A stretch of DNA of 64,000 nt from Phycisphaerales bacterium (GTDB lineage: Bacteria; Planctomycetota; Phycisphaerae; Phycisphaerales; UBA1924): assembly GCA_029260345.1 (NCBI GenBank), contig JAJDDK010000006.1:682001-746000 (forward strand), read 5' to 3'. The position numbers were made by a program, and so were the translations under genes. The notes beneath the pieces were generated by a model, which was not told the DNA's origin, made no database searches, and worked only from the letters and a program-made list of their open reading frames with translations. Position 1 is the stretch's first letter. The number at the start of each line of letters is the position of its first letter. Below are positions 201-32,297 of this stretch, piece after piece.

Positions 201-650
201 ATGTGCGAGACGAGGACACTTTTTGCCAGACATGGGCTGCGATGCACCCGACAGCGTGTTCTGCTTTTTGATTCGCTCGCTGAATCCCACGAACACCCCA
301 CCGCAGAAGAACTTTTCGGCGTCGTTCGCGCCAAGATCGATGGGTTGAGCCTCGCGACGGTCTACAACACGCTCGAGGCTTTCTGCAACGTTGGTCTATG
401 CCGCAAGCTCCCCTCCTGCGGCGGCGCTCGATACGACGCTGACCTTCGCGAGCACATGCACATCACCACGACGGATGGTGGCGTGCGAGATGTTCCCGAG
501 GAATTGGGCGTTCAGCTCCTGAACAGTCTGCCTCGGTCCATCTTGAACGAAGTCGAGCGTCGCACCGGAGTCCGGATTCGGCGCGTTTCAATTGATTTAT
601 TGGGTGAGCCGGTGACGTCCGAAAACGGGCAGTCAATTTCTGCGCACTGA
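201..650 (+). CDS. Fur/PerR-family transcriptional regulator lacking the structural CxxC zinc site
   Basis: 149 residues, the usual Fur length. The N-terminal winged helix is clear: LRCTRQR at residues 13-19 and the recognition-helix signature LATVYNTLEAF at 51-61. The dimerisation half retains a possible regulatory metal site, with D79/D81, the pair H85-x-H87 and D97 in the positions used by PerR/Fur. The CxxC that normally follows (as in CxxCGK) is replaced by TTDGG, and there is no second C-terminal CxxC. Family members repress metal uptake or peroxide defence genes with a metal corepressor; which metal applies here is not visible. The AGAGGA ahead of the ATG is about ten bases away. It stands alone, between a divergent zinc-ribbon gene and a PilZ gene. 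Confidence 0.85.
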   Translation: MCETRTLFARHGLRCTRQRVLLFDSLAESHEHPTAEELFGVVRAKIDGLSLATVYNTLEAFCNVGLCRKLPSCGGARYDADLREHMHITTTDGGVRDVPEELGVQLLNSLPRSILNEVERRTGVRIRRVSIDLLGEPVTSENGQSISAH

Positions 651-27622: not shown

Positions 27623-27651
27623 TTGATTCGGGCCAAAATGTAACCTATGCT
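27623..27651 (+). promoter_or_regulatory. Predicted sigma-70 promoter of the metal-transport operon
   Basis: TTGATT (27623-27628) and TATGCT (27646-27651) with an ideal 17-base spacer, about 50 bases before the binding-protein start codon. The dyad at 27635-27658 covers the spacer and the -10 box. Confidence 0.55.
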
Positions 27652-27658
27652 ACATTTT
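27635..27658. promoter_or_regulatory. Candidate metalloregulator operator (MntR/DtxR or Fur/Zur type)
   Basis: AAAATGTA (27635-27642), eight bases, TACATTTT (27651-27658): a perfect 8-bp dyad, with ten of twelve bases symmetric when the whole 24 bases are folded. It overlaps the predicted -10 box, so a bound repressor would block transcription. Position and form match repressor sites of manganese, zinc or iron importers; the cognate protein is not identified. Confidence 0.6.
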
Positions 27659-27700
27659 GACAGAGCCGCCACGCGGCGCCGCTCAAAGGAGGCATCGGCC

Positions 27701-28687
27701 ATGTTTCGAGGTCGTCAGCAAGGGTTGTTCTTGGTGCTGCTCAGCGTTGTCTCGTTCGTCCTGTTGACGCCCGTGGCTTGTCAGGCGGCGCCGCACTATC
27801 GCGTGGTGTGCACGACCGGCATGATTACGGACATCGTGCGAAATGTGGCAGGCGACCGGGCCGAGATCAAAGGCCTGATGGGCGAAGGCGTGGACCCGCA
27901 CCTCTACAAGCCGACGCGCACCGACATTGGCGCGCTGATGCGAGCCGACGTCGTCTTTTACAACGGGCTACTCCTTGAAGGAAAAATGACGGATGCGCTC
28001 ATACGCGTCGCCGTCTCCGGCAAGAAGGTGTACGCCGTCACCGAACTCCTGGACGAGCAGTTCCTTCTGGAGCCGGCGGAGTTTCAAGGCCTCTACGACC
28101 CGCACGTCTGGATGGACCCTGATGCGTGGGCGCAGGCCGTTGAGGTTGTGCGCGACAAACTCATCGAATTCGATCCGGACGGCGCCACGACGTATCGAGA
28201 CAATGCAAATAAATACCTCACGACCATGCGGGAGTTGTCGATCTACTGCGAACAGATTTTGCAAACCGTGGACGAGAATCAGCGCGTGCTGGTGACGGCG
28301 CATGACGCATTCAACTATTTCGGACGCCGATTCGACTACGAAGTGATTGGCATTCAAGGACTGAGCACTCAATCTGAAGCCGGCGTGAAAGACATTGAAC
28401 GCATCGTGGGCGTGCTGGTGGATCGAAAAATTGAGGCGGTCTTCGTCGAAACAACCATCGCGACTCGAAACGTCGAAGCGCTGGTGGCCGGCAGCGCCGC
28501 TCGCGGGCATCAAGTCCGCATCGGTGGCAAGCTGTTTTCCGACGCCATGGGCGCCCCCGGCACATACGAGGGCACGTACATCGGCATGATCGATCACAAC
28601 GTGACGACCATTGTTCGCGCCCTTGGTGGTGAAGCGCCCGCGCGCGGCATGCAGGGCAAACTGGCCTCCCCTGAGGACGGTCGATGA
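27701..28687 (+). CDS. Metal ABC transporter substrate-binding protein, TroA-like
   Basis: 328 residues from the ATG at 27701, which has AAAGGAGG nine bases upstream. An N-terminal signal peptide ([21 protein letters not shown]) exports it. It belongs to the cluster of TroA/PsaA/ZnuA proteins that capture Mn(II), Zn(II) or Fe(II). Candidate ligands: His in VDPHLYKP, His in YDPHVWMD, Glu in STQSEAG and Asp in KLFSDAMG. The C-terminal half is very like Treponema TroA, but where TroA has a histidine (SEASAHD) this protein has lysine (SEAGVKD), so an acidic third ligand as in manganese-binding PsaA is likely. There is no His-rich loop, which argues against a dedicated zinc ZnuA. Confidence 0.88.
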
Positions 28688-29517
28688 CGCCGATCCTTTC
28701 GAAACCTGATCGAAAATCAGCGACTCCCCTTTCAGCGCGACCGGAACACAGCGCCGAAAGCCCGGTGTCGATTCATGCGCTCACCGTTGCCTATCACCGC
28801 AAGCCCGTGGTGTGGGACGTGGATTACGATGCGCCGCCGCAGTCACTCGTGGCCATTGTCGGCCCGAATGGCGCAGGAAAGAGCACGATCATCAAGGCGT
28901 GTCTTGGGCTCGCGCCAAAGGCGGCGGGGCGTGTCGAGTTTTGGGGTCAGCCGTATCGCGCCGTGCGAAAGCGCATCGGGTATGTGCCACAGCGCGAGAG
29001 TGTGGATTGGGATTTTCCGGTCAGCGCCCTCGATGTTGTCGCCATGGGACGCTACGGCAAGATCGGTTGGTGCAAACCTGTTTCACGTCAACACCGTGCG
29101 GCGGCGATGGAATGCATCGATCGCGTTGGTCTTGCAGATTACGCGTCGCGGCAAATCAGCCAACTTTCCGGCGGGCAGCAGCAGCGCGTGTTTCTGGCGC
29201 GGGCGCTCGCTCAGGAGGCGGACCTGTATTTCATGGACGAGCCATTCGCCGGCGTGGACGCAGCGACGGAGCGCGCAATCGTGCAAGTGCTGCGCGAGTT
29301 GAAAGCGGGCGGCGCGACCGTGATTGTTGTTCACCACGACCTTCAGACGGTCGCAGAGTATTTTGACGAAGTCATGCTTTTGAACATGCGTGTCGTCGCC
29401 GAAGGGCCGGTCAGCGACACGTTTACGCAAGACAATTTGGTCAAGACCTACGGTGGTCGTCTGACGCTTCTGGCTGAAGCGGCGGAAGCGGTCGCCCGGG
29501 CGGAGCGAGGCGGCTGA
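28684..29517 (+). CDS. Metal ABC transporter ATPase
   Basis: 277 residues. Walker [10 protein letters not shown] near residue 60, Q-loop [20 protein letters not shown] (the manganese/zinc subgroup pattern), signature LSGGQQQR, Walker [13 protein letters not shown] and H-loop VVHHD. It is the TroB/MntB/ZnuC counterpart and energises the two permeases that follow. Its ATG overlaps the stop of the binding-protein gene by four bases. A variable, Ser/Pro-rich 27-residue head precedes the ABC core. Confidence 0.94.
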
Positions 29518-29520
29518 GCC

Positions 29521-30885
29521 ATGCACCGCGCCCAAACCTCCATTACGGACGTTTCGATCGAATGGCCTTCGGTTCAGGACGTGTTCCAAACGATGACGTT
29601 TCAGGCCGGCTACAACACTTCGGTTGTGCTCGCCGGGACCACGCTGCTTGGCGTCGCAGCGGGCATCGTTGGCGCGTTTGCGCTCCTTCGTAAGCGTGCG
29701 CTCATGGGTGATGCGCTCTCGCATGCGACGCTGCCCGGTATTGCCATGGCGTTTATTGTCGCCACACTCTTCGGCGTGGCTGGAAAGAGTCTGCTAATAC
29801 TTTTGCCGGGCGCAGCCATCACCGGAGTGCTCGCCATTGTCGCCACCCAATTCATCATCCGGCAGACGCGCCTATCTGAAGACACCGCCATTGGAGTTTC
29901 GCTCAGCGTGTTCTTTGGCGCGGGCGTCGTATTGCTGTCGTATGTGCAAAACATGAGTTCAGGCGATCAGGCCGGATTGGCGACGTTTATCTACGGCCAG
30001 ACCGCCGCGATGAATGTGCGCGATGTGTTCCTGATGGGGACGATTGCGTTAATTGCCATCATTGCCGCAGTCGCTCTCTTGAAAGAGTTCGCGCTGGTTT
30101 GTTTCGATGAGGACTTCGCCGCCGTGCAAGGTTGGCCGGTGACATTCATCGATCTGGTAATGATGACGCTCGTCGTGCTTGTCACGGTCGTTGGCTTGCA
30201 GGCGGTTGGCCTGATTCTTGTTGTCGCCATGCTCATTATCCCTCCTGCTGCGGCACGATTCTGGACCGAGCGTTTGGGACGGATGACGATTATCGCAGGA
30301 ATCATCGGCGGCGCAAGCGGTTACATCGGCGCTTCGGCGTCGGCGCTCCTGCCGCGCTTGCCTGCAGGCTCAGTGATAGTGCTCGCGGCTGGCGTTGTGT
30401 TCTTTCTCAGCCTGACGTTTGCTCCACGGCGTGGTGTGGTCGCCAATCTCAGCCGGGCAGCGCGGCTTCGCCTGAAGATCGCACAAGATCACATGCTTCT
30501 TGAGATTTTGCACAAGGACCTTCAACACTCCGAGGCAACAGAGGGAGCCTCTGTTTCCATTGGCTCAATTCGTAAGCGTCGGAGCTGGTCTCTTATCGAA
30601 GCAACGTTGATCGCGTATTCACTACAGCGACGCGGGTTGCTCCGCAAAAGTGGCAATGCAGTGTCTCTGACTGAAGAAGGTCAAGACGCCGCAACGCGTG
30701 TTGCGCGGACGCGTCGGCTCTGGGAGCAGTACCTCGTGCAATACGCCGATGTGGCGCCGTCCCATGTGGATTGGTCGGCCGATCTCGTCGAGCACGTGCT
30801 TTCTCCCGAAATGGTCACCCGACTTGAGCGTTCGCTTGAGCGCGCAAAGCGCCCCGCCGCACCGGTTGCAGAGGGCGCCGCATGA
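29521..30885 (+). CDS. Metal ABC permease fused to a DtxR/MntR-like domain (first of two)
   Basis: 454 residues. Residues 30-305 are an ABC-3 (ZnuB/TroC) permease with about eight helices, including the conserved RKRALMGDALSHATLPG segment. Residues about 315-440 form an extra cytosolic domain with the order of DtxR regulators: a helix with D323, a winged helix (RGLLRKSGNAVSLTEEG), then the dimerisation and metal-binding helices (RRLWEQYL, SADLVEHVLS). Aligned to DtxR/MntR, E402, D421, E424 and H425 fall on metal-ligand positions while the first dimerisation histidine is replaced by R398. A normal family member ends near residue 290. It starts three bases after the ATPase stop. Confidence 0.87.
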   Translation: MHRAQTSITDVSIEWPSVQDVFQTMTFQAGYNTSVVLAGTTLLGVAAGIVGAFALLRKRALMGDALSHATLPGIAMAFIVATLFGVAGKSLLILLPGAAITGVLAIVATQFIIRQTRLSEDTAIGVSLSVFFGAGVVLLSYVQNMSSGDQAGLATFIYGQTAAMNVRDVFLMGTIALIAIIAAVALLKEFALVCFDEDFAAVQGWPVTFIDLVMMTLVVLVTVVGLQAVGLILVVAMLIIPPAAARFWTERLGRMTIIAGIIGGASGYIGASASALLPRLPAGSVIVLAAGVVFFLSLTFAPRRGVVANLSRAARLRLKIAQDHMLLEILHKDLQHSEATEGASVSIGSIRKRRSWSLIEATLIAYSLQRRGLLRKSGNAVSLTEEGQDAATRVARTRRLWEQYLVQYADVAPSHVDWSADLVEHVLSPEMVTRLERSLERAKRPAAPVAEGAA

Positions 30886-32297
30886 GCCCCGGCCTCACAG
30901 AATTTATGTCGCTTGATTTCCCGGCGCTGCTCGCCGTGGTTCTTGCGTCCGTTTCGTGCGGCTTACTCGGAAACTTTCTCGTACTTCGGCGCATGAGTTT
31001 GATGGGCGATGCAATCGCTCACGCGGTGCTGCCCGGCCTCGTGCTCGCGTTTCTGGTCACCGCCGCATTTGGATATCCCGAACATGCGCGAGATCCACTG
31101 CTCATGATGGGTGGCGCCGCGTTGTCCGGCATTGTGACGGTGGTGCTCGTCGAATTGATTCAGCGACTTGGCAAGGTTGAAAAAGGCGCCGCGATGGGCG
31201 TGGCGTTCAGCGTGATGTTCGCGCTGGGCGTGCTGCTCTTGGAACAGGCGGCCGCCCGACAGGTGGACCTGGATGCAGACTGCGTGTTGTACGGCCAGCT
31301 TGAAAGCGTCATGTGGCTTCCGACAGACCCAACGGCCAGCTATTTCTCATGGAGCGGCATCGCCGAAATGCCGCGGCAGGTGAGCACGCTGGCATTTATC
31401 GCCTTCGCGGTGATCATTTTTACGACACTGTTCTACAAAGAGTTGCGTATCGCAGCGTTTGATCCCGGCCTTGGGAAAACGCTGGGCTTCAGGCCGCAAG
31501 TCATGCACTATGCGCTGATGATCTTCGTCGCAGCGGCGGCGGTCGCGGCGTTCGAAGCCGTAGGCTCCATTCTTGTGATTGCGCTCCTGATCTGCCCCGC
31601 CGCCACCGCGCGGCTTCTGACGGATCGATACTTCACACAAATTGGATTGACCGTGATCATCGCGATCATTGCGAGCGTGGGCGGATACATGCTCGGAACG
31701 CGCGGGCCGCTTTGGATCGGGCTTGACCAATCGGTCAACGCGGCGGGCATGGTGACGGTCACGCTCGGCGGCTTGCTTGCGATGGCGATCTTTTTCTCTC
31801 CATCACATGGCATCATTGCCCGATCCATGCGGCGGTTCCGACTCTCCGTCAGCGTGGCGCGCGAGGATTTGCTCGGTTTGCTCTACCGGCTTGAGGAACA
31901 CGGCGCTCCCGGAATGCCGCGCCGGCAAGTGGCGGCGGCGGTCGGCCCATGGTTGGCGGCGCAAGTTGCATCCCGCCGCGCCAGCCAACGTGGGGAAGTG
32001 AATTCACGCAACGGCTTGGTTGAACTGACGGCGAAGGGACGCACCATTGCGCAATCACTCATCCGTAGCCACCGATTGTGGGAGTCGTATTTGGTCGATG
32101 TGCTGGGTCTGCGCCCGGACCACGTTCACGACACCGCCATGCGGCTAGAGCACGTGCGCGATGCGCAAACGGGGAGCCGCCTCATGCCGCGTGTTGAGGC
32201 GACGATCGATCCGCACGATCGTCCGATTCCAAGCAATGGCCCATCAGCGCCGGCGCCGACCGCAAACGATGACGCCAAGTCCGATGGTCATGCATGA
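30882..32297 (+). CDS. Metal ABC permease fused to a DtxR/MntR-like domain (second of two)
   Basis: 471 residues. Residues 10-310 are an ABC-3 permease (LRRMSLMGDAIAHAVLPG conserved). Residues about 322-440 are DtxR-like and better preserved than in the first permease: the REDLLGLLYRLEEHG helix matches DtxR's YLRTIYELEEEG helix and puts D329 at the MntR Asp8 position. H397, E401, H416, E423 and H424 align with DtxR His79, Glu83, His98, Glu105 and His106, and M420 with Cys102. A Pro/Ala-rich tail follows. It overlaps the first permease by four bases (ATGA), so the two probably form a heterodimer with four extra metal-sensing lobes per transporter. Its end overlaps the opposite-strand gene by 54 bases. 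Confidence 0.87.
   Translation: MSPGLTEFMSLDFPALLAVVLASVSCGLLGNFLVLRRMSLMGDAIAHAVLPGLVLAFLVTAAFGYPEHARDPLLMMGGAALSGIVTVVLVELIQRLGKVEKGAAMGVAFSVMFALGVLLLEQAAARQVDLDADCVLYGQLESVMWLPTDPTASYFSWSGIAEMPRQVSTLAFIAFAVIIFTTLFYKELRIAAFDPGLGKTLGFRPQVMHYALMIFVAAAAVAAFEAVGSILVIALLICPAATARLLTDRYFTQIGLTVIIAIIASVGGYMLGTRGPLWIGLDQSVNAAGMVTVTLGGLLAMAIFFSPSHGIIARSMRRFRLSVSVAREDLLGLLYRLEEHGAPGMPRRQVAAAVGPWLAAQVASRRASQRGEVNSRNGLVELTAKGRTIAQSLIRSHRLWESYLVDVLGLRPDHVHDTAMRLEHVRDAQTGSRLMPRVEATIDPHDRPIPSNGPSAPAPTANDDAKSDGHA

Follow-up and report, generated by a model that had tools for sequence, protein, structure and literature searches.

A probable MntR operator at a TroABCD-type importer promoter in a Phycisphaerales bacterium, and its small candidate regulon

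The importer operon and the dyad at its promoter

A window of 64,000 nt from contig JAJDDK010000006.1 of a Phycisphaerales bacterium, to which all plain coordinates below refer, carries an operon for a TroABCD-type ATP-binding cassette (ABC) importer preceded by an inverted repeat (Table 1). This dyad is very probably the operator of MntR, a manganese-sensing repressor of the DtxR family that is encoded elsewhere in the same genome, as judged from sequence comparisons across its relatives. In the labels used below, G000 is the bacterium's own genome (3.4 Mb), other G numbers are relatives, and L numbers are extracted loci.

The first gene of the operon encodes a binding protein whose nearest solved relative is TroA of Treponema pallidum (1toa, E=1e-69), and the ligand regions of TroA are kept in it (GVDPHLY, DPHVW, TAHDAF and LFSDAMG). 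Its start codon is likely at 27701, since the start given in the list of open reading frames, 27647, falls within the -10 region of the promoter. No match to Nramp/MntH was obtained in the bacterium's own genome at E<=1e-20, and the TroA-type operon is therefore the likely manganese importer. Both permeases end in a PF02742 domain, a type of tail that nearly all importers of this family share (71 of 80 loci, motif present or not) and that is perhaps a cytosolic metal sensor gating transport.

The dyad itself, AAAATGTA-ACCTATGC-TACATTTT, lies at 27635-27658, exactly where the original prediction had placed it, and its symmetry takes in one further pair on the outside (C/G at 27634/27659) as well as part of the spacer; from its end to the importer start codon there are 41 bp. 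As had been claimed, it is absent elsewhere in the window, being the sole match even when 3 mismatches are allowed (0.03 expected), and by pattern search, which was used for all genome-wide scans, its exact form is a single copy in the whole genome. The dyad had also been described as overlapping a good promoter, of which the overlap stood but the strength did not: the hexamer pair TTGATT-17-TATGCT matches consensus at only 8 of 12 positions and is missing from the output of the promoter scanner because this is below its threshold of 9. Among 64 orthologous promoters, 35 have a -35/-10 pair (at least 8/12) that reads toward the importer and whose -10 overlaps or adjoins the dyad, and 7 have such a pair reading away from it. 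This strand bias makes the overlap of the promoter by the dyad credible, and it supports a repression that would act through covering of the -10 region.

Table 1. Features of the importer locus and of the second site in the same genome (plain coordinates refer to the window).
Feature	Position	Strand	Basis or remark
Inverted repeat CAAAATGTA-ACCTATGC-TACATTTTG (26 bp), proposed MntR operator	27634..27659	.	sequence and motif searches
MntR box core AAATGTAAC-CTAT-GCTACATTT	27636-27657		inside the dyad
-35-like hexamer TTGATT	27623..27628	+	4 of 6 to consensus
-10-like hexamer TATGCT, within the dyad, 17-bp spacer	27646..27651	+	4 of 6 to consensus
Ribosome-binding site AAAGGAGG	27685..27692	+	sequence
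TroA/MntC-type metal-binding lipoprotein or periplasmic binding protein, operon gene 1	27701..28687	+	PF01297
ABC ATPase, Mn/Fe-type	28684..29517	+	
ABC-3 permease with C-terminal DtxR metal-binding/dimerisation-like domain	29521..30885	+	PF02742
Second ABC-3 permease, C-terminal PF02742 domain	30882..32297	+	
Fur-family protein (Irr/PerR-like), not supported as binder	201..650	+	
Second strong site AAATGTAGC-ATCG-GCTACATTC	C4:389141-389162		57 bp ahead of PF13557 gene
Predicted outer-membrane beta-barrel	G000:C4:389219-390061		PF13557, E=1e-28

Conservation of the motif and co-occurrence with mntR

We searched 100 genomes of the same family and scored the 80 with usable sequence upstream of the importer for TGTAGC-N4-GCTACA, allowing at most 2 mismatches of 12 within 450 bp. 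The motif conserved in the orthologous promoters, AATGTAGC-N4-GCTACATT, contains this core and has A/T-rich outer ends. It precedes the orthologous importer in 61 of the 66 genomes that encode MntR and in 3 of the 14 that do not (Fisher p=1.2e-7), whereas in a control with shuffled promoters it occurred in 0.66 of 81. Conservation ahead of orthologous operons had been set beforehand as the test on which the prediction of an operator could fall, and the dyad passed it. The window copy differs from AAATGTAGC-N4-GCTACATTT by 1 mismatch in 18.

The regulator lies outside the window. When the entire genome was searched with PF01325, one clear DtxR-family protein emerged, a free MntR at G000:C7:59088-59492 that is unlinked to the importer; the original prediction was thus right that the window has no free DtxR or MntR gene, although the genome does encode one. 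The protein matches the E. coli-type model NF008273 with 171.8 bits (curated cut-off 153), its closest PDB entry is E. coli MntR (2h09), and all six metal ligands of B. subtilis MntR are kept in it (D26, E29, H95, E117, E120 and H121). In several relatives mntR stands beside the importer with the box between the two, e.g., in G094, G067, G005 and G025.

The site thus combines an inverted repeat of 9-bp half-sites with a GC/TA core and a 4-bp spacer, a location over the -10-like hexamer of a TroA-type operon with manganese as its presumed substrate, a genome that encodes MntR with manganese-type metal ligands, and a distribution ahead of orthologous importers that follows mntR. With enough cytoplasmic Mn(II), a metal-loaded MntR dimer would sit on two GCTACATTT half-sites and cover the -10 region, so that RNA polymerase would be blocked and the importer kept off; upon a drop in manganese, MntR would be released and the operon transcribed.

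Other dyads were observed at some of the orthologous promoters. One, TTTGANTANTCAAA, is often found in genomes without MntR, before the orthologous importer or Nramp (L065, L067, L029 and L042, and upstream in G030, G056, G063 and G072); a further DtxR-family regulator probably binds there. In Azospirillum (L043, L074, L075, L078 and L080), a third dyad, GAATATGAACATATGTTCAAA, is kept ahead of the orthologous importer at a distance of 50-160 bp. Finally, ATATAGC-N4-GCTATAT occurs in a few orthologous promoters (L044 around 5930, L071 and L035) and is nearer to the E. coli mntS site, indicating that the half-site drifts between lineages.

Rival binders and points against an MntR operator

Three candidate binders had originally been put forward, namely the Fur-type protein at 201, an unlinked regulator, and the DtxR-like domains on the permeases, and of these the unlinked regulator was borne out in the form of MntR. 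The genome holds two Fur-family genes, the one inside the window and a second at G000:C6:529687, and ZnuA-superfamily importers can be under Zur or Fur control, which would turn the dyad into an element of an iron, peroxide or zinc response. We consider this very improbable: neither Fur scores above a specific NCBIfam cut-off, the motif has the 9-N4-9 layout of MntR sites, and in relatives the box adjoins mntR, not fur. Moreover, the motif is found in 52 of the 64 genomes that have the 201-type Fur and in 12 of the 16 that lack it (p=0.73), and this missing association led us to reject that protein as the binder. Still less probable is a feedback in which the permease tails would themselves occupy the dyad and thereby signal the occupancy of the transporter to the promoter, even though PF02742 is present in both and the second permease shows weak similarity (NF053665) that continues into the winged-helix part lying before this domain in DtxR. 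The similarity in that region is weak and partial only, the DNA-binding domain PF01325 was not detected by Pfam in either permease, and tethering to the membrane would make promoter binding awkward, sensing of metal by the tail being more natural. The fused domains also occur at importer loci with other dyads instead, and therefore do not explain the distribution of the motif, whereas mntR does; furthermore, the box is found in front of MntH and outer-membrane genes as well, which have no such tail. We rejected the fused domains as binder on this distribution and on the missing DNA-binding domain.

That the palindrome might be a chance dyad or a leader RNA hairpin and not an operator could draw on its exact form having only one copy in the genome, yet we give this hardly any credence. 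The sequence is kept in dozens of divergent orthologous promoters, with invariant half-sites, variable spacer bases and a variable distance to the gene, and the conservation test refutes the chance form; the overlap with the -10 hexamer puts most of the dyad upstream of the likely transcription start.

Several observations do weigh against an MntR operator at this promoter. In the window copy, the left half-site departs from the motif (GTAAC instead of GTAGC), and the stretch read at the bacterium's own mntR showed no box. Five genomes with MntR have no box before the importer (G052, G069, G080, G089 and G098), and three assemblies without MntR have one (G026, G065 and G076), but the latter are incomplete (81, 88 and 64% complete, respectively), and mntR may therefore be missing from them. 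The relatives share ancestry, so that the p-values overstate independence, though 74 genera are spanned, and zinc as well as manganese can be the cargo of TroA-type binding proteins.

A second target and comparison with known systems

Apart from the importer copy, the genome has a single further strong site of the motif, which precedes a PF13557 gene (Table 1), and through it this predicted outer-membrane barrel would be under the same control by MntR. Matches with 3 mismatches at G000:C5:405953, C6:540708 and C6:738967 were judged to be chance, because a control with the backwards pattern yields more of them (11 matches versus 4). The protein behind the second site fits the PF13557/COG4313 channel family, with a PF13557 match, a signal-like N-terminus and a predicted 12-strand barrel: its model (predicted local distance difference test, pLDDT, 85) lists 14 strands, of which the long ones form the barrel, and resembles FapF and the COG4313 channel 4rl8. 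The box is also found ahead of PF13557 homologues in relatives (e.g., G002, G006, G031, G038, G043, G062, G070, G075, G083 and G089), and such homologues adjoin the importer, Nramp or mntR in G002, G010, G021, G030, G050, G073, G076, G089, G090 and G091. About seven PF13557 homologues of genomes with MntR lack the box; these may be paralogues that serve other functions.

When the relatives were searched strictly (2 mismatches of 18), 22 genomes yielded 30 distinct sites, and the control yielded 6. The gene behind the site encodes the importer binding protein at 17 of the 30, a PF13557 barrel at 3, MntH at 2 (in G037 and G068, which have no ABC importer), an OprB porin at 2 (G005 and G055), an ABC ATPase at 1 and a prepilin-like protein at 2, while 3 sites have no assigned gene. 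With the shorter motif, a site precedes the close MntH homologue (Nramp) in 7 of the 8 MntR-encoding genomes that have one and the distant Nramp paralogues of such genomes in 0 of 8. The OprB-family porins stand directly behind the boxes (L164:161-1456 and L171:716-2062), and at L171, from G055, the porin is placed between mntR and the importer. The prepilin-like proteins carry an N-terminal methylation motif and come from two genera (L163:1134-2060 and L165:907-1749, both on the minus strand), likewise directly behind MntR-box-like sites; the reason for a manganese control of these genes is not evident.

The box of E. coli mntH, AAACATAGC-AAAG-GCTATGTTT (NC_000913.3, K-12), has the same 9-N4-9 frame as the planctomycete motif, and the E. 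coli MntR that binds it is, among solved structures, the closest to the MntR found here. Both have a GC-TA core next to the spacer and A/T-rich ends, and each is placed at or close to the promoter of a manganese importer, known in one case and presumed in the other. Yet, the half-site is GCTACATTT here versus GCTATGTTT in E. coli mntH, the recognition helix of MntR reads GVSHVTVTRIVTRLQ here and GVSQPTVAKMLKRLA in E. coli, and the E. coli target is MntH, whereas here it is a TroABCD-type importer with mntR unlinked. The E. coli mntS site, AGATATAGC-ACAG-GCTATATTA, shares this frame, and both E. coli sites differ from the motif found here at one or two positions in each half. A DtxR-family regulator (TroR) governs the troABCD operon of T. 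pallidum, whose TroA is the closest match to the binding protein among solved structures; in contrast, the planctomycete regulator is a short MntR of the E. coli type that is unlinked to its target, and PF02742 domains are fused to the permeases. In Stenotrophomonas maltophilia, a 25-bp palindromic MntR box lies between -35 and -10, and MntR controls a manganese importer together with an outer-membrane receptor (PMC13217887). In the planctomycetes, the counterparts would be an ABC importer and a 12-stranded PF13557 barrel or, in some relatives, an OprB porin.

From regulation and gene neighbourhood, we propose that manganese enters across the outer membrane through such proteins. In a tentative reading, to which we give slightly less than even weight, the PF13557 barrel would be a channel dedicated to the passage of manganese through the outer membrane, MntR would turn on a full two-membrane route in Phycisphaerae-type planctomycetes, and OprB porins would fill this slot in some relatives. 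To our knowledge, outer-membrane proteins admitting manganese are poorly known beyond MnoP of Bradyrhizobium and the recent Stenotrophomonas receptor, and the boxed PF13557 barrel is therefore a directly testable candidate.

A switch of this type is already known, but its occurrence, the half-site variant and the regulon in these planctomycetes appear to be undescribed in the literature searched, where queries for an MntR regulon of Planctomycetes and for the string AAACATAGC returned nothing relevant. Searches of the whole genome and of relatives can, as here, reveal a regulator lying outside the window. For the Planctomycetota, a phylum without a described MntR regulon in that literature, the analysis names a probable binder, its motif and a small candidate manganese regulon.
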